Assembly: GCA_039680785.1 (NCBI GenBank) | Contig: JBDKSF010000115.1 | Span: 1 to 40,357 of the forward strand | Length of the DNA: 40,357 bases | Origin: Candidatus Cloacimonas sp. | GTDB taxonomy: Bacteria; Cloacimonadota; Cloacimonadia; Cloacimonadales; Cloacimonadaceae | Reading direction: 5' to 3' | Shown here: piece by piece, positions 421-40,357 of the stretch | Layout of the letters: every line of letters begins with the position of its first letter | Position numbering within the stretch: position 1 is the stretch's first letter | Notes under the pieces: generated by a model | What the model saw: only the letters and a program-made list of their open reading frames with translations | What the model was told of the DNA's origin: nothing | The model's database searches: none | Translations under genes and position numbers: made by a program

Positions 421-594
421 TATAAAGCCCCTTGTGGGCGACACAATGATAGCGATGGAGGCGTAAGCCCCTCGTAAAATGGAAGACACCATTGCTATCA
501 TTTCATATTTTGCAATCTAAAAAAGCCCTTGTGGGCGACACAATCATAGCGATGGTGGCGTAAGCCCCTTGAAAATAAAAAGAATTAAGATAAA

Positions 595-700
595 AGTTCC
601 GTTAGGAACGATACATATTAACGACGGGTTTTTAACCCGGCGATAAGAAGAATTGATAAAAAAGTCCCAGCGGGACGACAGATAATAGCGATGGTGGCGT
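595..700 (+). repeat. Hairpin-module pair (GTTCC and GTCCC types), representative copy
   Basis: Three small palindromes sit in a fixed order: GTTCCGTTAGGAAC, CGGGTTTTTAACCCG and GTCCCAGCGGGAC, joined by conserved linkers (GATACATATTAACGA and GACGACAGATAATAGCGATG). The same arrangement recurs at about 896-1001, 1360-1468, 1603-1706, 1904-2010 and 2364-2460. It recurs in the opposite orientation at 33446-33572 and 38432-38690. A related module at about 425-455, 522-560 and 1528-1570 replaces the stem with GCCCCTTGTGGGC but keeps the linker GATAGCGATGG. The sequences are non-coding; their function is unknown. Confidence 0.75.
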
Positions 701-716
701 AAATAATCTTTCGGCT

Positions 717-837
717 GTCGTCTTTAAGTCAAAATCGGCCTTTTCAATAAGATTATTAATGACCTCATTCAAAGATAGGAAACAAGAATGAAATTGTCAG
801 GAAAATCACAAGCAAAACCGATTTTAACTCAAAGGAC
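717..837 (+). repeat. 121-bp element with inverted ends, copy A
   Basis: One of six same-length elements. The left end CTTTAAGTCAAAATCGG and right end CCGATTTTAACTCAAAG are inverted repeats, 15 of 17 positions matching. The core contains words shared by all copies, such as GAATGAAATTGTC and AAAATCACAAGCAAAACC (with minor variants). It has no open reading frame. It sits between hairpin modules ending GATGGTGGCGTAA. It resembles a miniature inverted-repeat element in size and structure, but a clear target duplication was not identified. It could equally be a structured RNA unit. Confidence 0.7.
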
Positions 838-1019
838 TACACAATCATAGCGATGGTGGCGTAAGCCCCTCGAAAAGAAAGATATATAGTGAAAAAAGTT
901 CCGTTAGGAACGATACATATTAACGACGGGTTTTTAACCCGTTGCAAAGAATAACTGTATAAAAAAGTCCCAGCAGGACGACAGATAATAGCGATGGTGG
1001 CGTAAATAATCTGTCGGCT

Positions 1020-1140
1020 GTCGTCTTTAAGTCAAAATCGGCCTATTTTATGAGATTATTAGTGACATTGTTCAAAGATAGGAAACAAGAATGAAATTGT
1101 CTGGAAAATCACAAGCAAAACCGATTTTAACTCAAAGGAC
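1020..1140 (+). repeat. 121-bp element with inverted ends, copy B
   Basis: Same element as at 717-837, with a core variant (TATTTTATGAGATTATTAGT). It lies 45 bp upstream of copy C, the intervening bases holding only ATGATAGCGATGGTGGCG and short linkers. Confidence 0.7.
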
Positions 1141-1181
1141 TTCATAATGATAGCGATGGTGGCGTAAATAATCTGTCGGCT

Positions 1182-1302
1182 GTCGTCTTTAAGTCAAAAT
1201 CGGCCTATTTTATGAGATTATTAATGACATCATTCAAAGATAGGAAACAATAATGAAATTGTCAGGAAAATCACAAGCAAAACCGATTTTAACTCAAAGG
1301 AC
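1182..1302 (+). repeat. 121-bp element with inverted ends, copy C
   Basis: Same element and length; differs from copy B at a few core positions (for example CATCATTC for CATTGTTC and AATAATG for AAGAATG). Ends are unchanged. Confidence 0.7.
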
Positions 1303-1723
1303 TACATAATGATAGCGATGGTGGCGTAAGCCCCTCGAAAAGAAAGACATATAGTGAAAAAAGTTCTGTTAGGAACGATACTTACTAACGCCGGGTTTTT
1401 AACCCGGCGAATACGATCCACGACGAAAATAAGTCCCAGCGGGACGACAGATAATAGCGATGGTGGCGTAAGCCCCTCGAAAAAAAGAAGATACAATATT
1501 TATCATTTTGTATTTTGCAATCTAAAAAAGCCCCTTGTGGGCGACACAATGATAGCGATGGAGGCGTAAGCCCCTCGTGAAAAAAGACATATAGTGAAAA
1601 AAGTTTCGTTAGGAACGATACATATTAACGACGGGTTTTTAACCCGGCGATAAGAAGAATTGATAAAAAAGTCCCAGCGGGACGACAGATAATAGCGATG
1701 GTGGCGTAAATAATCTGTCAGCT

Positions 1724-1844
1724 GTCGTCTTTAAGTCAAAATCGGCCTTTTCTATGAGATTATTAGTGACCTTATTCAAAGATAAGAAGAAAGAATGAAA
1801 TTGTCTGGAAAATCACAAGCAAAACCGATTTTAACTCAAAGGAC
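1724..1844 (+). repeat. 121-bp element with inverted ends, copy D
   Basis: Counterpart of copy A one duplication period (1007 bp) downstream. The core reads GATAAGAAGAAAGAATG where most copies have GATAGGAAACAAGAATG. Confidence 0.7.
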
Positions 1845-2026
1845 TTCATAATGATAGCGATTGTGGCGTAAGCCCCTCGGGGAAAAAGACATATAGTGAA
1901 AAAAGTTCCGTTAGGAACGATACATATTAACTACGGGTTTTTAACCCGTTGCAAAGAATAACTGTATAAAAAAGTCCCAGCAGGACGACAGATAATAGCG
2001 ATGGTGGCGTAAATAATCTGTCAGCT

Positions 2027-2147
2027 GTCGTCTTTAAGTCAAAATCGGCCTATTCTATGAGATCATTAATGACATTGTTCAAAGATAGGAAACAAGAATG
2101 AAATTGTCAGGAAAATCACAAACAAAACCGATTTTAACTCAAAGGAC
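2027..2147 (+). repeat. 121-bp element with inverted ends, copy E
   Basis: Counterpart of copy B one period downstream. It carries ACAAACAAAACC where others have ACAAGCAAAACC. Confidence 0.7.
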
Positions 2148-2188
2148 TACATAATGATAGCGATGGTGGCGTAAATAATCTTTCGGCT

Positions 2189-2309
2189 GTCGTCTTTAAG
2201 TCAAAATCGGCCTTTTCTATGAGATTATTAGTGACCTTATTCAAAGATAAGAAGAAAGAATGAAATTGTCAGGAAAATCACAAGCAAAACCGATTTTAAC
2301 TCAAAGGAC
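2189..2309 (+). repeat. 121-bp element with inverted ends, copy F
   Basis: Counterpart of copy C one period downstream, but its core (GATAAGAAGAAAGAATG) matches copy D. This suggests sequence exchange between copies rather than simple descent. Confidence 0.7.
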
Positions 2310-2574
2310 TACATAATGATAGCGATGGTGGCGTAAGCCCCTCGAAAAATAGAATTAAGATAAAAGTTCCGTTAGGAACGATACATATTAACGACGGGTT
2401 TTTAACCCGGCGATAAGAAGAATTGATAAAAAAGTCCCAGCGGGACGACAGATACTAACGAGGGGTTTTAACCCGGCGAAATAATGAATGGATATAAAAG
2501 TCCCGATGGGACTTTAAATTATAAATCCTCTAAATCTTAAAAATCCTGTTCATCCCAGACCTATTATTTTGCTT

Positions 2575-32581: not shown

Positions 32582-32828
32582 GTGGTCTGGGGGTCGAGAG
32601 GTCTGGAAGTCGAGGGGTCTGGAAGTCGAGGGGTCTTGGGGTCTTGGGGTCGAGCGGTTTGGAGGTCTTGGGGTCGAGAGGTCTAGAGGTAGAGAGGTTT
32701 GGAGGTCTGGAAGTCGAGAGGTCTTGAGGTCTTGGGGTCGAGGGGGTCTGGAAGTCGAGGGGTCGAGGGGTCTTGGGGTCGAGAGGTCTTGGGGTCGAGG
32801 GGTCTGGAGGTCTGGGGGTCGAGGGGTT
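32582..32828. repeat. G-rich minisatellite with 9-base grain
   Basis: About 245 bases made almost only of nine-base words of the type GGTCTGGAA, GTCGAGGGG and TCTTGGGGT, joined in variable order. The plus strand is rich in G and poor in C, with many runs of four or more G. Because the period is a multiple of three, both strands stay open and yield repetitive frames (for example GLEVERS-like on plus and STPRPLDL-like on minus), which I regard as spurious. Confidence 0.9.
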
Positions 32829-32984
32829 AATCCCAACCTCAACTTATTATGCTGTATGGAAGTTATCTAAATACACAATTTTTGTCAATTTTGTCTTTGT
32901 TTCATTTTCCATTGCCAAAACTAATGCGTTTTAAGTTCCATTTCCATATATAACAATCAGAAAACCAGCTTATTTAATTGAAAT

Positions 32985-34065
32985 CTAAAATCTCCAAAAT
33001 CCCATAAATCTTGTTCATCCCCTACCTATTCAAATCTGCGCAATCTGCGTCATCTGCGTCCTCTGCGTGCAAAATCTTCGGAGCTCTCGGTTTTTTCGGT
33101 GTTTTCGGTGGCTAATAACTAAATCCTCTTAATCCTTAAATCCTAAAATCCTTGTTTCAAAACTTAAATCTTCGTGAACAAATCTTAAAATCCTTGTTTC
33201 AAAACTTAAATCCCCAAAATCTCTAAAATCCTGTTCATCCCCTACCTATTCAAATCTGCGTCATCTGCGAAATCTTCGTGAGACCTTTATCTGTGTTATC
33301 TATGCAATCTGTGAGAGGATATTTTAAAGGAAAAACGACGTCCTCGTCGTTCCCCTAACAACCGAGTTATGCAGTTTCCGCTAAATTTTAGGATGGTCTA
33401 ATAGTTTGTTTGTTGTGGGTTGACCAGGAGGTCAACCCTCCTGTATTTTCGCCGGGATAAAACCCACCGCTAATATCTGTCGTCCCGCTGGGACTAATTA
33501 TATCTGTTACTATTTTCGCCGGGTTAAAACCCGTCGTTAGTATGTATCGTTCCTAACGGAACTTTTATTCGGAATCCTGTAAATCCTCTTAATCCTTAAA
33601 TCCTGAAATCCTTGTTTCAAAACTTAAATCTTCGTGAACAAATCTTAAAATCCTTGTTGCTAAACTTAAATCCCCAAAATCTCTAAAATCCTGTTCATCC
33701 CTTGCCTATTAAATCTGCGCAATCTGCATCATCTGCGTGAAAAATTTTCGGTGCTCTCGGTTTCTTCGGTGTTTTCGGTGGCTAATAACTAAATCCTCTT
33801 AATCCTTAAATCCTAAAATCCTTGTTTCAAAACTTAAATCTTCGTGAGCTATTTTCGTTTTTTTCGGTGGCTAATAACTAAATCCCCAAAATCCCTAAAA
33901 TCCTGTTCATCCCCTACCTATTCTTTTTTTAATCTGTGCTATCTGTGTAATCTGTGAGAGCTATTAAATCTGCGTCATCCGCGTTATCTGCGTGCAAAAT
34001 CTTCGGTGCTCTCGGTTTTTTCGGTGCTTTCGGTGGCTAATAACTAAATCCCCTAATTCCGAACC
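32985..34065. repeat. Phrase-repeat tract between rpsG and the restriction system
   Basis: No gene. The tract is built from three kinds of degenerate phrases: ATCTGCGTCATCTGCG-type words (33034-33070, 33254-33275, 33712-33750, 33966-33995), TTCGGTGTTTTCGGTGGC (33098, 33760, 34018), and AATCCTTAAATCCTAAAATC (33130, 33590, 33800). The combination GGTGGCTAATAACTAAATCC recurs after the second type. The same phrases occur at 36236-36410 and 38690-39010, and in the opposite orientation at 80-390. A hairpin-module cluster (33326-33572) interrupts the tract. Confidence 0.85.
33326..33572 (-). repeat. Hairpin-module cluster, opposite orientation to 595-700
   Basis: In order: AACGACGTCCTCGTCGTT, the linker ending GTTTGTTTGTTGTGG, GGTTGACCAGGAGGTCAACC, a degraded CGGG module, GTCCCGCTGGGAC, CGGGTTAAAACCCG, and GTTCCTAACGGAAC. 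This is the same set as 2575-2725 plus the reverse complement of 595-700. Non-coding. Confidence 0.8.
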
Positions 34066-34141: not shown

Positions 34142-35281
34142 ATGAAGATAGATGAAGCAAACCAACTCACAATACCTATTTTTGAAGATAATCCAAAATC
34201 TTCAGTTTGGGTTATACTGAATCAGGTAAAGATGATAGAAGTCCTGGTAGAGATTCAAAAAACATCTAATTTAGTCCTAACGAAAAACCGAATTACTGAA
34301 TTAAAAGCGATTATAACCAATTATAGCAAAGATAAAGAGGGACTTTTAAATATTGAGGCAAACGGAGATACAATTTCTTTGCGGAGAGATATTCTCCTTT
34401 CCGAATTGGAACAAATTATGGAATCCCAGACATTGGAGAGAGCACAATATTACCTGAAGCGTTTAATAAATGGCATAAAAAAGGAAAAAACAAGCAAAAT
34501 TAACGATATCAATCTGCTTCGCTGGAAAGAATATGACGAAATTCTAACCGATAGTTTGTGGTTATTTGATAAAAGAAATACTTCCGGAGCTCATTTGGGC
34601 TGGTATTGGGGTAATTTTGTTCCACAAATTCCACATCAAATGATGCTGAGATATACCAAAAAAGAGGACTGGGTTTTAGATACTTTTTTAGGAAGTGGAA
34701 CTACGCTTATTGAAAGTAAAAGATTGGGAAGAAATGGAATAGGGATAGAATTGAATGCAGAAGTTGCAAATAAGGCAGAACAGCTAATAAAAACAGAACC
34801 GAATAAATATAATGTAGTGAGTGATATACTTATCGGGGACAGCAGAATAATAGACATTGAGCCAACATTAAATAAATATGCTACTGAAAAAGTTCAGCTT
34901 CTTATTATGCATCCGCCTTATCATGATATTATCAAATTTTCTAAAGATGACAAAAATGACCTTTCCAATGCTGAGACGATAGAGGAATTCCTGAAAATGT
35001 TTAAAGGAGTGGTTGATAATGTAACGCCCTATTTGGAAAAAGGACGCTATCTCATTTTGGTTATTGGAGATAAGTATTCCAAAGGAGAATGGATACCTTT
35101 GGGCTTTAATTGTATGCAGGAGGTTTTAAATAGTGGCTACATACTTAAAAGTATTATTGTGAAGAACTTTGAAGAAACCCGGGCAAAAAGAAATCAACAA
35201 GAACTTTGGCGTTATAGAGCCCTGGTAGGTGGTTTTTATGTTTTTAAACATGAATATGTAATGCTTTTTAAGAAGAAATAA
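34142..35281 (+). CDS. DNA methyltransferase of a type II-like restriction system
   Basis: A 379-aa SAM-dependent DNA methylase (N6-adenine or N4-cytosine class). SAM-binding motif DTFLGSGTTLIESKRLG with D180 and GIGIELN with E203 sits mid-protein; the catalytic motif follows at H257-P-P-Y260 (MHPPYHDIIKFS), so the order is X-I-IV, unlike the common beta class. The first position of the usual (D/N/S)PPY is histidine. The first about 110 residues form a separate helical region of unknown role, possibly target recognition. A weak GTGGGA precedes ATG 34142. The endonuclease gene begins 13 bases downstream. The base modified and the site are not predictable. Confidence 0.85.
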   Translation: MKIDEANQLTIPIFEDNPKSSVWVILNQVKMIEVLVEIQKTSNLVLTKNRITELKAIITNYSKDKEGLLNIEANGDTISLRRDILLSELEQIMESQTLERAQYYLKRLINGIKKEKTSKINDINLLRWKEYDEILTDSLWLFDKRNTSGAHLGWYWGNFVPQIPHQMMLRYTKKEDWVLDTFLGSGTTLIESKRLGRNGIGIELNAEVANKAEQLIKTEPNKYNVVSDILIGDSRIIDIEPTLNKYATEKVQLLIMHPPYHDIIKFSKDDKNDLSNAETIEEFLKMFKGVVDNVTPYLEKGRYLILVIGDKYSKGEWIPLGFNCMQEVLNSGYILKSIIVKNFEETRAKRNQQELWRYRALVGGFYVFKHEYVMLFKKK

Positions 35282-35294
35282 TTAGGAGAACAAG

Positions 35295-36134
35295 ATGCCT
35301 TTATTCAGCCATAAACAATTATTGAATTTGAAATTGAGTAGTATCAAAAGCGAGAATTTAAAGGAGTTAGCAGTTAATCTTGGCATTTCCCCAAAAGGTT
35401 CTGCCTCAGAAATCATAAAAAGAATATTAGAAATGCTACCCCTACCCCCTGAAAATATTATTGATGCTTTCATTAAAACCCTCTATCTACAAAAAATACA
35501 GGAACGGAAAGAACTTATCTCAGATGCAGATTTAAGAAATGAAGTTTCTAAAGTGAAATATTTCGCCTGGAGCACTACCCAAGGAGGGTTGGATCAAAAA
35601 ATACAAAAAGAGTTCGTAAGAAGATATTGTCACTACGATGATTTAATCAACCATGTAAAACTTACTCTCCATGATGATGTAACCAATTATGCAATATGCA
35701 GTTGGTTTAATCATTGGACTACTGTTTATATTGAAGAACATATTGGTGCGCATCCTAAAGTTATTCCAACTATCAAGAATATAAAAGGAATTGATCTTTT
35801 CTTTGCCGGGCAACCCTTTGATTTAAAAATAACTTATATCCCCAAAGAATATAACATAGCTGATGCTTTGCAGAATCCTCTGGATTTGGCTGTATGGATG
35901 TATGAAAACCAAGGCGCTGAAAGGTTTGGAGCCGATAATAGGATATTTATCATTCTTTTGGATAAAGAGAATCCAGCCAAAAGCTGGGAATTGAAAAGAA
36001 ATTTTGAGCTGATATTTAGCGCAATTGATGCTTTCTTTTCTAAGGACGATATCTCTGCCCAGGATGAAATCGCCTTCACTTATCATAAAAAATCCTATAC
36101 AGCCATCACCAAAGTGCTGATGATTACCAAATAA
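35295..36134 (+). CDS. Restriction endonuclease with SAP-like N-terminus
   Basis: A 279-aa protein, likely the nuclease partner of the preceding methylase. Residues about 14-50 (SIKSENLKELAVNLGISPKG, then SASEIIKRIL) look like a SAP-type helix-turn-helix DNA-binding motif. A PD-(D/E)XK core is suggested by KGIDLFFAGQPFDLKIT: D167, then D176-L-K178, with upstream acidic EEHIG. The remaining C-terminus (IFIILLDKENPAKSWELKRN) has a plausible strand-helix ending. ATG 35295 has AGGAG just upstream. No close known enzyme is recognised; the pairing with a methylase and the active-site pattern drive the call. A terminator follows. Confidence 0.75.
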   Translation: MPLFSHKQLLNLKLSSIKSENLKELAVNLGISPKGSASEIIKRILEMLPLPPENIIDAFIKTLYLQKIQERKELISDADLRNEVSKVKYFAWSTTQGGLDQKIQKEFVRRYCHYDDLINHVKLTLHDDVTNYAICSWFNHWTTVYIEEHIGAHPKVIPTIKNIKGIDLFFAGQPFDLKITYIPKEYNIADALQNPLDLAVWMYENQGAERFGADNRIFIILLDKENPAKSWELKRNFELIFSAIDAFFSKDDISAQDEIAFTYHKKSYTAITKVLMITK

Positions 36135-36235: not shown

Positions 36236-36420
36236 GTGCCATCGGTGGCTTCGGTGCTTTCGGTGCTTTCGGTGGCTAATCAATAAATCCCCAAAATCTC
36301 TAAAATCCTGTTCATCCCCTACCTATTCTTTTTTTAATCTTTGCTATCTGTGTAATCTGTGAGAGCTATTAAATCTGCGTAATCAGCGTCCTCTGCGTGC
36401 AACCCTTATCTGCAACGGAC
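36236..36420. repeat. Phrase repeats downstream of the restriction system
   Basis: TTCGGTGCTTTCGGTGGC, then AATCTCTAAAATCCTGTTC, then TGTGTAATCTGTGAGAGC and AATCTGCGTAATCAGCGTCC. Nearly the same string lies before the second surface-protein gene at about 38880-39020, so the surface gene and this flank were duplicated together. Confidence 0.85.
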
Positions 36421-36427
36421 AGAGCAG

Positions 36428-37774
36428 CTATTTCAGCATAACTATTTTCCGCGAAGAAGAAAAACTACCCGCCGTCACTTTGCAGAAATAAATTCCCGCC
36501 GCTACTGGCTTACCCTCATCAGTTTTACCATCCCAAACGAATGTATGTTCGCCGGGCGATAATACTTGCTGATTAACGACGGTCCGAATTAGCTGTCCCC
36601 TGAAATTATAGACGGCAATAGTAGTTGGACTATTGTCATCTTGTTTAATTTGGATATTAGTGCTACCCCTAAATGGATTAGGGTAGCAAGTAAGCTTGGC
36701 TTCCATTGCCGGGGTGCTTGGGTCATCGTTGGCAACAGGGGGTCCCACATACATACGGTAAATATGCGCATTATGGGCAATATAAATATATTCACTCCAA
36801 TAACATATTCCGTATATCTGACCTGATTGATCAGGCATATCGGCCGGCTGAACTATCCATTGCCAACTGCTGCCATTATTTAGTGAACGGATGATACCAG
36901 AAGAACCATCATTACCATCCCAAGTGCCAGCGACCACATAGACATTATCTTCTATAGCAGTCATAGTACAATCCGTCATACAACCACCTATTGAAAAATT
37001 GTCACCTAGTTGGCTCTGATCTGAGCCAACCCAATCATCTCCTGCATTATCTGAATATAGGAGACCCTCGCCACATCTTACTATTAACCTGCCCTCTCTT
37101 ACAAGGGCTGACGCAGCGTAAGATACACCTGACCACCCTACTTGATGAAATTGCCAATTTAGACCATCAGAGCTAACCAACGCACCATCCGGCGCATTTT
37201 GTCCAACAATCATTAAACCAGCCGAAAAATCAGCGCTGGTGAAGCAATTAGGCATTAAGCCATACACCAAGGTCCAGTTTTGCCCACCATTGGTGGTCCG
37301 ATAAATCTTTAAACCATCAATATAAATAAGGGCGTTAAGAACTACATAACCCTCCAGTCCGTTAATAAACTCAATATGATTAACTACATAGTACCCCGGT
37401 TGCTGTTCCAGCTGTCCAGTTCTGACCCAACTCTGACCGCCATTGGTGGTTTTATATAACACCGGACGGGTCAGTGTCCAGTCAGACGGATGGTAGATGT
37501 AACCCCCGCAATAACCAACCGTAGAAGAAATCATGTAGGATGATTCCAGAAATAATGAATCCCGATCATCAACGATGGTGTTTTGGAAGTTTATCCCATC
37601 AGTAGACCGGACGAAGCACTTCCATCCAACTCCATAAATTTGCCCAGCTGATTGGGTAATCATCTGCAACTGTTCTAAGGTCGCAGTATAACAATCTTGC
37701 CAGTCACCAGTGATATCTCCACCCCAAAGTGGGAGAGTGGCCAATAAAGCCAAAAGAATTATCATCTTTTTCAT
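36428..37774 (-). CDS. Secreted beta-propeller-like protein with C-terminal sorting domain, paralog 1
   Basis: A 448-aa exported protein. Signal peptide MKKMIILLALLATLPLWGG. Residues about 40-340 carry BNR/sortilin-like blades with repeated LYKTTNGGQSWV, IYRTTNGGQNWT and LVSSDGLNWQF motifs (Asp-box style). The C-terminus (about 368-448) is an immunoglobulin-like FlgD/Por sorting domain: CYPNPFRGSTNI, YNFRGQLIRTV, HTFVWDGKTDEGKPVAAGIY and KIVMLK. It is therefore predicted to leave through a type IX-like system and be cell-surface bound or released. AGGAGG lies before the ATG (start 37774). It has a strong upstream promoter. Its neighbour at 39035 is a near copy. The ligand is unknown. Confidence 0.9.
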   Translation of the reverse strand: MKKMIILLALLATLPLWGGDITGDWQDCYTATLEQLQMITQSAGQIYGVGWKCFVRSTDGINFQNTIVDDRDSLFLESSYMISSTVGYCGGYIYHPSDWTLTRPVLYKTTNGGQSWVRTGQLEQQPGYYVVNHIEFINGLEGYVVLNALIYIDGLKIYRTTNGGQNWTLVYGLMPNCFTSADFSAGLMIVGQNAPDGALVSSDGLNWQFHQVGWSGVSYAASALVREGRLIVRCGEGLLYSDNAGDDWVGSDQSQLGDNFSIGGCMTDCTMTAIEDNVYVVAGTWDGNDGSSGIIRSLNNGSSWQWIVQPADMPDQSGQIYGICYWSEYIYIAHNAHIYRMYVGPPVANDDPSTPAMEAKLTCYPNPFRGSTNIQIKQDDNSPTTIAVYNFRGQLIRTVVNQQVLSPGEHTFVWDGKTDEGKPVAAGIYFCKVTAGSFSSSRKIVMLK

Positions 37775-38431: not shown

Positions 38432-38690
38432 CGCTGGGTTAAAACCCGTCGCTAATATCTGTCGTCCCGCTGGGACTAATTATATCTGTTACTATTTTCG
38501 CCGGGTTAAAACCCGTCGCTAATATCTGTCGTCCCGCTGGGACTAATTATATCTGTTACTATTTTCGCCGGGTTAAAACCCAGTGCTAATATCTGTCGTC
38601 CCGATGGGACTCTAATTGTATCTATTACTATTTGCACCGGGTTAAAACCCGTCGTTAGTATGTATCGTTCCTAACGGAACTTTTATTCGG
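38432..38690 (-). repeat. Tandem 67-bp hairpin-module unit, about 3.5 copies
   Basis: Units of 67 bases start at 38432, 38499 and 38566, with a slightly longer fourth. Each carries CGGGTTAAAACCC and GTCCCGCTGGGAC (or GTCCCGATGGGAC), and the last ends with GTTCCTAACGGAAC. They are the reverse orientation of the modules at 595-700. Confidence 0.85.
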
Positions 38691-39020
38691 AATCCTCTTA
38701 ATCCTTAAATCCTAAAATCCTTGTTTCTAAACTTAAATCTTCGTGAACAAATCCTGAAATCCTTGTTTCAAAACTTTAATCCCCAAAATCTCTAAAATTT
38801 TGTTCATCCCCTACCTATTCAAATCTGCGTAATCAGCGTCCTCTGCGTGAAAAATCTTCGGTGACTTCGGTGTTTTCGGTGGCTAATAACTAAATCCCAA
38901 AAATCTCTAAAATCCTGTTCATCCCCTACCTATTCTTTTTTTAATCTGTGCTATCTGTGTAATCTGTGAGAGCTATTAAATCTGCGTAATCAGCGTCCTC
39001 TGCGTGCAATCCTTATCTGC
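38690..39020. repeat. Phrase repeats between the two surface-protein genes
   Basis: AATCCTTAAATCCTAAAATC, AATCTGCGTAATCAGCGTCC, TTCGGTGTTTTCGGTGGC and related strings, in the same order as 36236-36420. The last about 110 bases are nearly identical to that stretch. Confidence 0.85.
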
Positions 39021-39034
39021 AACGGACAGAGCAG

Positions 39035-40357
39035 CTATTTCAGCATAACTATTTTCCGCGAAGAAGAAAAACTACCCGCCGTCACTTTGTAGAAATAAAT
39101 TCCAGCCGCTACTGGCTTACCCTCATCATTTTTACCGTCCCAAACGAATGTATGTTCACCGGGCGATAATACTTGCTGATTAACGACGGTCCGAATTAGC
39201 TGTCCCCTGAAATTATAGACGGCAATAGTAGTTGGACTATTGTCTATCTGCTTAATTGCGATGTTGGTGTTACCACGAAATGGATTAGGGTAGCAAGTAC
39301 AATTTACTTCCATTGCCGGGGTGCTTGAGTCATCGTTGGCAACAGGGGGTCCCACATACATACGGTAAATATGCAGATTATGGGCGATATAAATATACTC
39401 GCCCCAATAACATATTCCGTATATTTGACCTGATTGATCAGGCATATCAGTTGGCTGAACTATCCATTGCCAACTGCTGCCATTATTTAGTGAACGGATG
39501 ACCCCGGGATAAAGATCTTCACCGCTCCGAATTCCAGCGATGGTATAAATATTGTTACCCTGTGAGCTAAATGAACAAGAAGTCCAAAAACCCACTGAAA
39601 AATTGTCACCCAGTTGGCTCTGATCTGAGCCAACCCAATCATCTCCTGCATTATCTGAATATAGGAGACCCTCGCCACATCTTACTATTAACCTGCCCTC
39701 GCTTACAAGGGCTGACGCAGCGTAAGATATACCCGACCACCCTACTTGATGAAATTGCCAATTTAGACCATCAGAGCTAACCAACGCACCTTCCGGCGCA
39801 TTTTGTCCAACAATCATTAAACCAGGCGAAAAATCAGCGCTGATGGCACAATTAGGTATTAAACCATACACCAAGGTCCAGCTTTGCCCACCATTGGTGG
39901 TCCGATAAATCTTTAAACCATCAATATAAATAAGGGCGTTAAGAACTACATAACCCTCCAGTCCGTTGATGAATTCAATATGCACAACTGAATAGAACCC
40001 CGGTTGCTGTTCCAGCTGTCCAGTTCTGACCCAACTCTGACCGCCATTGGTGGTTTTATATAACACCGGACGGGTCAGTGTCCAGTCAGACGGATGGTAG
40101 ATATAACCCCCGCAATAACCAACCGTAGAAGAAACCATATAGGATGATTCCAGGTATAAAGAGTCACAGTCAGCCACCATAACATTTTGAAAATTTACAC
40201 CATCGGTGGATTTTACAAAATATTTATATCCCACACCGTAAATCATACCCGCGGATTGGGTAATCATCTGCAATTGTTCCACAGCCGAAACATAACAATC
40301 TTGCCAGTCACCAGTGATATCTCCGCCCCAAAGTGGGAGAGTGACCAATAAAGCCAA
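39035..40357 (-). CDS. Secreted beta-propeller-like protein with C-terminal sorting domain, paralog 2, cut at window edge
   Basis: About 440 residues visible; the true start lies beyond the end of the window. The visible N-terminus, LALLVTLPLWGG, is the tail of a signal peptide matching paralog 1, so about the first seven to eight residues are missing. Blade motifs TTNGGQSWV and TTNGGQSWT and the FlgD/Por sorting end (CYPNPFRGNTNI, KIVMLK) match paralog 1 almost throughout. Differences cluster in two stretches, about residues 40-75 and 260-290 of paralog 1 numbering. Both genes share flanking repeats, which supports a segmental duplication of about 2.6 kb. Confidence 0.9.
   Translation of the reverse strand: MALLVTLPLWGGDITGDWQDCYVSAVEQLQMITQSAGMIYGVGYKYFVKSTDGVNFQNVMVADCDSLYLESSYMVSSTVGYCGGYIYHPSDWTLTRPVLYKTTNGGQSWVRTGQLEQQPGFYSVVHIEFINGLEGYVVLNALIYIDGLKIYRTTNGGQSWTLVYGLIPNCAISADFSPGLMIVGQNAPEGALVSSDGLNWQFHQVGWSGISYAASALVSEGRLIVRCGEGLLYSDNAGDDWVGSDQSQLGDNFSVGFWTSCSFSSQGNNIYTIAGIRSGEDLYPGVIRSLNNGSSWQWIVQPTDMPDQSGQIYGICYWGEYIYIAHNLHIYRMYVGPPVANDDSSTPAMEVNCTCYPNPFRGNTNIAIKQIDNSPTTIAVYNFRGQLIRTVVNQQVLSPGEHTFVWDGKNDEGKPVAAGIYFYKVTAGSFSSSRKIVMLK

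Follow-up and report, generated by a model that had tools for sequence, protein, structure and literature searches.

Two-hairpin repeats of a Candidatus Cloacimonas genome and their probable link to subclass 1.2 Y1 transposases

A contig of Candidatus Cloacimonas sp. carries arrays of short palindromes whose stems differ on both arms while the adjoining linker hardly changes, which raises the question of what these elements are and how they were spread. The stretch analysed here (the window, 40,357 nucleotides, contig C115) belongs to a genome (G000) of 2.07 Mb in 122 contigs that is 99% complete. All positions below are those of the window unless a locus is named.

Architecture and covariation of the repeat units

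The original prediction had described three module types, each made of an A-rich lead, a palindrome and a linker, with further copies in reverse orientation. All of them were found where it had placed them: one array lies on the forward strand (427-2512) and two inverted clusters lie at 33450-33564 and 38432-38682 (Table 1). The extent of the unit had to be revised: hairpin 1 and the linker were as described, but a second hairpin after every linker had been overlooked, as had six modules of about 160 nt with a long hairpin. Specifically, the unit consists of an A-rich lead, hairpin 1, a near-constant linker of about 12 nt (12-13) ending in TAG or TAA, and hairpin 2 (CGACGGGTTTTAACCCGGCG or CGATGGGGCGTAAGCCCCTCG). 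The stem of hairpin 1 comes in three types (GTCCC/GGGAC, GTTCC/GGAAC and GCCC/GGGC), which appear in the window as GTCCC-AGC-GGGAC followed by GACAGATAATAGCGATGG, GTTCC-GTTA-GGAAC followed by GATACATATTAACGACGG and GCCC-CTTGT-GGGC followed by GACACAATGATAGCGATGG; the linkers by type are GACAGATATTAG, GATACATACTAA and GACACAATGATAG. The four nucleotides ahead of hairpin 2 in the window units are TTAG, ATAG or CTAA/TTAA, and complete units in tandem arrays are spaced at 66-67 nt. Folding of single units in five stretches, two of which were badly placed and set aside, gave moderate z-scores (-1.3 to -4.3).

The modules of about 160 nt, six in the window and about 31 in its genome, contain a long hairpin (GTC..CTTTAAGTCAAAATCGG ... 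CCGATTTTAACTCAAAGG.C), after which come a unit-type linker and hairpin 2, indicating that the hairpin-1 slot accepts very different hairpins. This linker is of the GCCC type in most copies and of the GTCCC type in others (L239, L237). In the window and at locus L006 the module starts inside the GTAA loop of the preceding unit's hairpin 2 and its end restores the interrupted loop (GGCGTAA/ATAATCT ... GGCGTAA/GCCCC, the stroke marking the junction), and at other loci it is preceded by non-unit sequence. The reverse strand of the stretch 1172-1337 folded as RNA with a z-score of -5.15, and the forward strand of the module folded as DNA was not stable (z -0.14). Behind the arrays there is usually one more hairpin, GGTTGACG(TCCT)CGTCAACC, then GAACGACG(AGGA)CGTCGTTC (33417-33438 and many other loci); stretches of the AATCTGCGT and GGATTTAAGG types border the arrays, and the order within these composites is much alike across sites.

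Table 1. Repeat units and related modules of the window
Position	Strand	Feature
427..474	+	GCCC-type unit: GCCC(CTTGT)GGGC, linker GACACAATGATAG, hairpin 2 CGATGGAGGCGTAAGCCCCTCG
525..571	+	GCCC-type unit
594..642	+	GTTCC-type unit: GTTCC(GTTA)GGAAC, linker GATACATATTAA, hairpin 2 CGACGGGTTTTTAACCCGGCG
662..699	+	GTCCC-type hairpin 1 and linker; hairpin 2 interrupted by next 160-nt module
707..864	+	~160-nt module: long hairpin replacing hairpin 1, then linker and start of hairpin 2
896..944	+	GTTCC-type unit
965..1002	+	GTCCC-type hairpin 1 and linker, hairpin 2 interrupted
1010..1171	+	~160-nt long-hairpin module, first of tandem pair
1172..1329	+	~160-nt long-hairpin module, second of tandem pair
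1361..1409	+	GTTCC-type unit
1431..1479	+	Mosaic unit: GTCCC-type hairpin 1 and GCCC-type hairpin 2
1530..1577	+	GCCC-type unit
1601..1649	+	GTTCC-type unit
1669..1706	+	GTCCC-type hairpin 1 and linker, hairpin 2 interrupted
1714..1871	+	~160-nt long-hairpin module
1903..1951	+	GTTCC-type unit
1972..2009	+	GTCCC-type hairpin 1 and linker, hairpin 2 interrupted
2017..2178	+	~160-nt long-hairpin module
2179..2336	+	~160-nt long-hairpin module
2364..2412	+	GTTCC-type unit
2432..2478	+	GTCCC-type unit, complete
2500..2512	+	Lone hairpin 1 GTCCCGATGGGAC, end of the array
33450..33496	-	GTCCC-type unit, downstream of rpsG
33517..33564	-	GTTCC-type unit, also behind rpsG; shared with G004 in place and orientation
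38432..38478	-	GTCCC-type unit
38499..38545	-	GTCCC-type unit
38566..38612	-	GTCCC-type unit
38635..38682	-	GTTCC-type unit

Genome unit counts were taken from covariance-model searches. The model was built from 14 copies of one stem type, because a MAFFT alignment of mixed types misplaced the loop. In the window genome it returned 143 matches at E<=0.1 and 126 at E<=0.001 with stricter filters, the best with an E-value of 5e-32. Similarly, the pattern GGGTTTTAACCCG with one mismatch occurred 99 times, compared to 7 for a control in which the pattern was read backwards, so that chance stems in AT-rich DNA, the outcome that would have undone the original prediction, do not account for the copies. 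For covariation, units from about 30 genomes were aligned by structure, 150 in all and 136 of them distinct. Standard pairs filled 97.3% of the pair cells of the distinct units versus 89.4% after shuffling, and both sides had changed at 11 of the 12 pairs (5/5 in hairpin 1, 6/7 in hairpin 2). The covariation score was 0.268, versus 0.128 for shuffled units and at most 0.099 when partners were slid. The size of this difference is inflated by relatedness among the sequences and by an alignment that had been fitted to the structure; the effect itself is beyond doubt, given that the stem types accompany different transposases (see below). Both hairpins therefore covary strongly, and the two stem arms do change together beside a similar linker, as had been proposed. 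Selection for a fold, also proposed, held in part: covariation points to a fold constraint, most simply acting on single-stranded DNA, but the signal largely reflects hairpin lineages that go with transposase lineages. An Rfam 15 scan of the window at the gathering score gave five tRNAs only and no family at the units.

Units around Y1 transposase genes

The units had also been suspected to be targets of a REP-associated Y1 transposase, and a search for a RAYT-type gene in the genome had been suggested. The only Y1_Tnp gene in the window genome encodes 222 aa (locus L009) and was rejected as the partner, its flanks carrying a different repeat. The suspicion was borne out in sister genomes instead, where the units flank Y1 genes. 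In G007, an intact 150-aa Y1 tnpA (L153 1072-1524, minus strand) is surrounded by the best-scoring units, several in each orientation on each side. In G001, a single contig of 2,246,820 bp, a tnpA homologue with one in-frame TAG has GTCCC units on either side, and a second, distinct tnpA with one in-frame TAA has several GCCC units (AAAAAGCCCGTAGGGCGACACAATGATAACGATGGGTGTGTAAACCCCTCG) before it and one inverted after it. These two stop-bearing genes are at L137 1164-1616 (TAG) and L315 1103-1531 (TAA), in a genome that keeps more than 120 units. GTCCC-type units thus flank one transposase lineage (G007, G001) and GCCC-type units a second (G001), which explains why the stems differ on both arms beside a near-constant linker.

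The homologues are about 150 aa long, with the HUH motif DH[VI]H and a few variants of its first letters such as NHIH or DHLH. Among 25 homologues examined, the HUH, WQ and Y---Q--HH signs were present wherever that part was complete, and the invariant columns of their alignment were H55, H57, W95, Q96, Y115, Q119, H122 and H123. NCBIfam models placed them in the IS200/IS605 family (transpos_IS200 above the cut-off, REP_Tyr_transpos far below it), and their profile matched the solved ISHp608 (IS608) transposase with E=1e-15. By motifs, length and sequence similarity, the partner genes are assigned to TnpA_Y1 subclass 1.2, for which Quentin et al. 2018 gave the signature DH[IV]H, WQ, Y---Q--HH and about 148 aa (PMC6006769). 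Table 1 of that paper enters 'no' under REP for this subclass, and its conclusions state that IS properties are not shared by it (PMC6006769). In the later open-access literature, we found no paper that changes the no-REP status.

To measure inverted similarity around the genes, each gene's 400 bp of upstream sequence was aligned with its 400 bp of downstream sequence in reverse complement. Over 34 loci the mean score was 41.0 for matched flanks compared to 11.7 for cross-locus pairs, and 0 of 20,000 permutations reached that mean (p<=5e-5). Because the named genomes had been picked for holding units, the family set, chosen only by transposase, is the fair subset; there, 16 of 22 loci scored above the 99th percentile of mismatched pairs. 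In the named-genome set, 7 of 13 loci exceeded the 99th percentile of cross pairs. Some subclass-1.2 genes had no detectable inverted flanks by this measure: six of the 22 family loci, six of the 13 others and one Bernardetia gene did not score above the 99th percentile. Ordinary window genes, used as control, scored 9-17 in 16 of 17 cases, the exception (30) lying in a duplicated, repeat-bound stretch.

Flank similarity also tracked transposase similarity (Mantel r=0.70, p=2e-4; Spearman 0.37). The GTTCC and GTCCC units of the window matched best the flanks of L153/L137, while its GCCC unit matched those of L118/L115/L119, a second transposase lineage. Among 50 family genomes, the median number of units was 10 with a subclass-1.2 gene and 1 without (p=9e-4; p=0.0017 outside the genus), a comparison that is supporting only, since the model was tuned to the genus and sister species are not independent. 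Near tnpA, TAG was the most over-represented trinucleotide 8-15 nt after the hairpins (85 versus 46 expected, z 5.9), often as TAGC directly ahead of hairpin 2.

The exact GTCCC-unit pattern was found in 45 stretches across phyla, the hosts being Cloacimonadota, Hydrogenedentota, a deltaproteobacterial bin, Melioribacteraceae, Paludibacteraceae, Fluviicola, Chitinispirillia and Kuenenia. The transposase profile matched in 10 of 12 genomes with this pattern, some matches being fragments, and gave none in the other two. In Kuenenia (L206), GTCCCGTAGGGAC-GCATTGACGTTAGC-CCGGGGTTTCAACCCCGG precedes the gene and is inverted after it, and the flanks of the Paludibacteraceae tnpA (L215) read GTCTCGGAGAGAC-GACACAACCATTAGC-CCCCGCACTTTCAGTGTGGGG. 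On a Persicobacter plasmid, a gene chosen independently of the units is bordered by ACCCCAAAGGGGT-GACACTTATTAGC-GATGGGTGTTAACCCATC, and a related copy follows the gene in inverted orientation. Of two Bernardetia genes chosen likewise, one has copies resembling AGCTGCGTAGCTGCGTAATATTTGTAG on either side and the other has such repeats upstream only. A scan of viral contigs with the transposase alignment gave no relative, so a phage carrier is unsupported; plasmid searches gave two records only.

The presence of units on both sides of a Y1 gene in sister bacteria indicates that this enzyme most likely recognises the hairpins and has spread them through the genome. We consider it highly probable that the units are REP-like non-autonomous repeats, the cognate DNA of TnpA_Y1 subclass-1.2 Y1 (HUH) transposases, orphaned in the window genome. 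By analogy with the chemistry of the family, the enzyme would bind hairpin 1 in single-stranded DNA and cut in or near the linker, the best candidate site being the TAG before hairpin 2, and units would have moved by a single-strand route. Arrays may then have grown and shrunk through recombination. In the window genome the transposase would have been lost, leaving the units as relics that may serve the host; their stem types point to at least two past transposase lineages, one behind GTCCC and GTTCC and another behind GCCC.

Genomic placement and alternative explanations

All 18 unit clusters with both neighbours visible were intergenic, between convergent (7), tandem (8) or divergent (3) genes, and 15 of them lay downstream of at least one gene. 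Downstream of rpsG, G000 has two units and G004 three in the same place and orientation, G001 carries three that point the other way, and units are absent there from G005, G007 and G008. At three other orthologous sites, G000 has 0.6-2 kb with units versus about 0-330 bp in G004 or G001, block differences that include other repeats and may be gain or loss. The three near-empty sites showed no clear target-site duplication, and no exact unit-sized insertion was seen between species, the differences being blocks of 0.6-2 kb. Also downstream of rpsG, at 32582-32836, lies an array of about 250 bp with an 8-nt period (GGGGTCGA-like), the orthologous site of G004 having about 20-30 bp. Elsewhere in the window, 36249-37280 and 38856-39884 are the two copies of a duplication (94-96% identical, about 2.6 kb apart), which encodes a secreted protein containing the domains FlgD_ig and Por_Secre_tail. 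Next to a unit cluster, at 34142-36134, an N6_N4 DNA methylase gene and, behind it, a 279-aa gene with no Pfam match may form a restriction-modification pair.

No subclass-1.2 gene was found in the window genome by single-protein or profile search, nor in G004 (99% complete) by profile search, while the same profile run found one in six of nine genus genomes (G001, G002, G003, G005, G007 and G008). Even so, 126 units are kept in the window genome and 88 in G004. Per genus genome there are 0-5 tnpA matches, some of them fragments, versus up to 126 units. The absence of the gene from G000 and G004, together with the stops in both G001 copies, indicates that units outlast the transposase.

It could be argued that the units act as RNA, as 3'-UTR, processing or termination elements under transcript selection, with the transposase link as a by-product. 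The strong covariation, the intergenic sites, mostly downstream of a gene, the position shared by G000 and G004 behind rpsG and the better folding of the long-hairpin module on one strand as RNA would all fit. Yet some units are found between divergent genes, both orientations occur, no Rfam family is matched and three relatives have no units behind rpsG. Nor does an RNA role explain why, in several phyla, the units flank a single transposase subclass in pairs; we regard it as unlikely. A different reading takes the units for the ends of full IS200/IS605-type insertion sequences and the arrays for decayed ordinary elements that are not REP-like. It draws on the closeness of subclass 1.2 to IS200 TnpA and on L137, which resembles a small insertion sequence with one unit per end, but it is at odds with the excess of units over tnpA matches, with arrays and opposite orientations around the gene that differ from the left and right ends of IS608 in the literature, and with tnpA copies that, where examined within one genome, were divergent and not near-identical. 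This makes it quite improbable. A third account, in which the palindromes arose by chance in AT-rich DNA and multiplied through nothing but slippage and segmental duplication, would suit the variable copy number of arrays (2 versus 3 units behind rpsG) and the mosaic units; the dispersal across the genome, model E-values as low as 5e-32, the covariation and the recurrence of the layout beside tnpA in other phyla already refute that account, to which we give practically no credence.

Relation to known repeat systems

As probable REP-like partners of subclass-1.2 enzymes, the units resemble the REP/RAYT systems (TnpA_REP, class 2 of Quentin; REPtrons, REPINs) in being high-copy intergenic hairpins with arrays and mosaics, in their inverted copies around one Y1 gene and in a separate hairpin family for each transposase (PMC6006769, PMC3733652). 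In the broad sense of REP, they are many dispersed intergenic palindromes (126-143 copies, 18/18 clusters intergenic), with inverted copies around a cognate Y1 gene in relatives and not in the window genome. Unlike REP/RAYT, they have two hairpins and a conserved linker, and their transposase carries Y---Q--HH instead of Y---NP. The GT[AG]G of canonical GTAG REPs is absent from the 5' foot of hairpin 1, which is preceded by A-rich sequence. The CGTC-tagged REPs (Di Nocera 2013), for which no dedicated transposase is known, have a stem of 8-9 bp starting with AT pairs, an unpaired CGTC at one end and a CCA tail (PMC3733652). The reverse strand of the GTCCC unit (...TGTCGTCCC...) contains CGTC, but the units have a 5-bp GC-rich stem, no CCA tail and a second hairpin, which sets them outside that group.

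With IS200/IS605 elements (IS608) the units share the Y1/HUH family and sequence relatives of ISHp608 TnpA, and single-stranded hairpin recognition would be expected; unlike in those elements, the units are inverted around the gene and vastly outnumber it, and no set of near-identical tnpA copies, each having subterminal hairpins at defined ends, was found. The transposases agree with subclass 1.2 as described by Quentin et al. 2018 in length (about 150 aa), in DH[IV]H, WQ and Y---Q--HH and in low copy number. They differ from the published picture (no REP, mostly Cyanobacteria and Bacteroidetes) in having cognate repeats and in occurring in Cloacimonadota, Hydrogenedentota, Planctomycetota and others.

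For subclass 1.2, published as IS200-like proteins that have neither IS properties nor repeats, the units are a direct candidate DNA substrate, and several transposase lineages with matching stems offer a natural series on how Y1 enzymes read hairpins. The link accounts for some of the intergenic repeats in Cloacimonadota and may also explain similar ones in Hydrogenedentota, Planctomycetota and Bacteroidota. Genomes with more than 80 units and no detectable transposase provide a case for asking whether REP-like elements benefit their host. A bolder proposal, which we make tentatively and hold to be doubtful, is that there is an undescribed multi-phylum class of two-hairpin REP systems centred on subclass-1.2 Y1 transposases, in which the linker and hairpin 2 would be fixed, hairpin 1 would be an exchangeable specificity part (even a long hairpin) and the units of some lineages would be kept by the host after loss of the transposase.

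The 222-aa Y1 gene of L009 constitutes, with its own repeat, a second candidate REP system in the window genome. Its product scored slightly above the cut-off of NCBIfam REP_Tyr_transpos, and a two-hairpin repeat (GTACCGGCGCTCGCTGTAGCGCCG and AAGGCGGAACGGCGTCCGCC) lies on both sides of the gene, at L009 1290-1415 and 2110-2443 (G000:C77).
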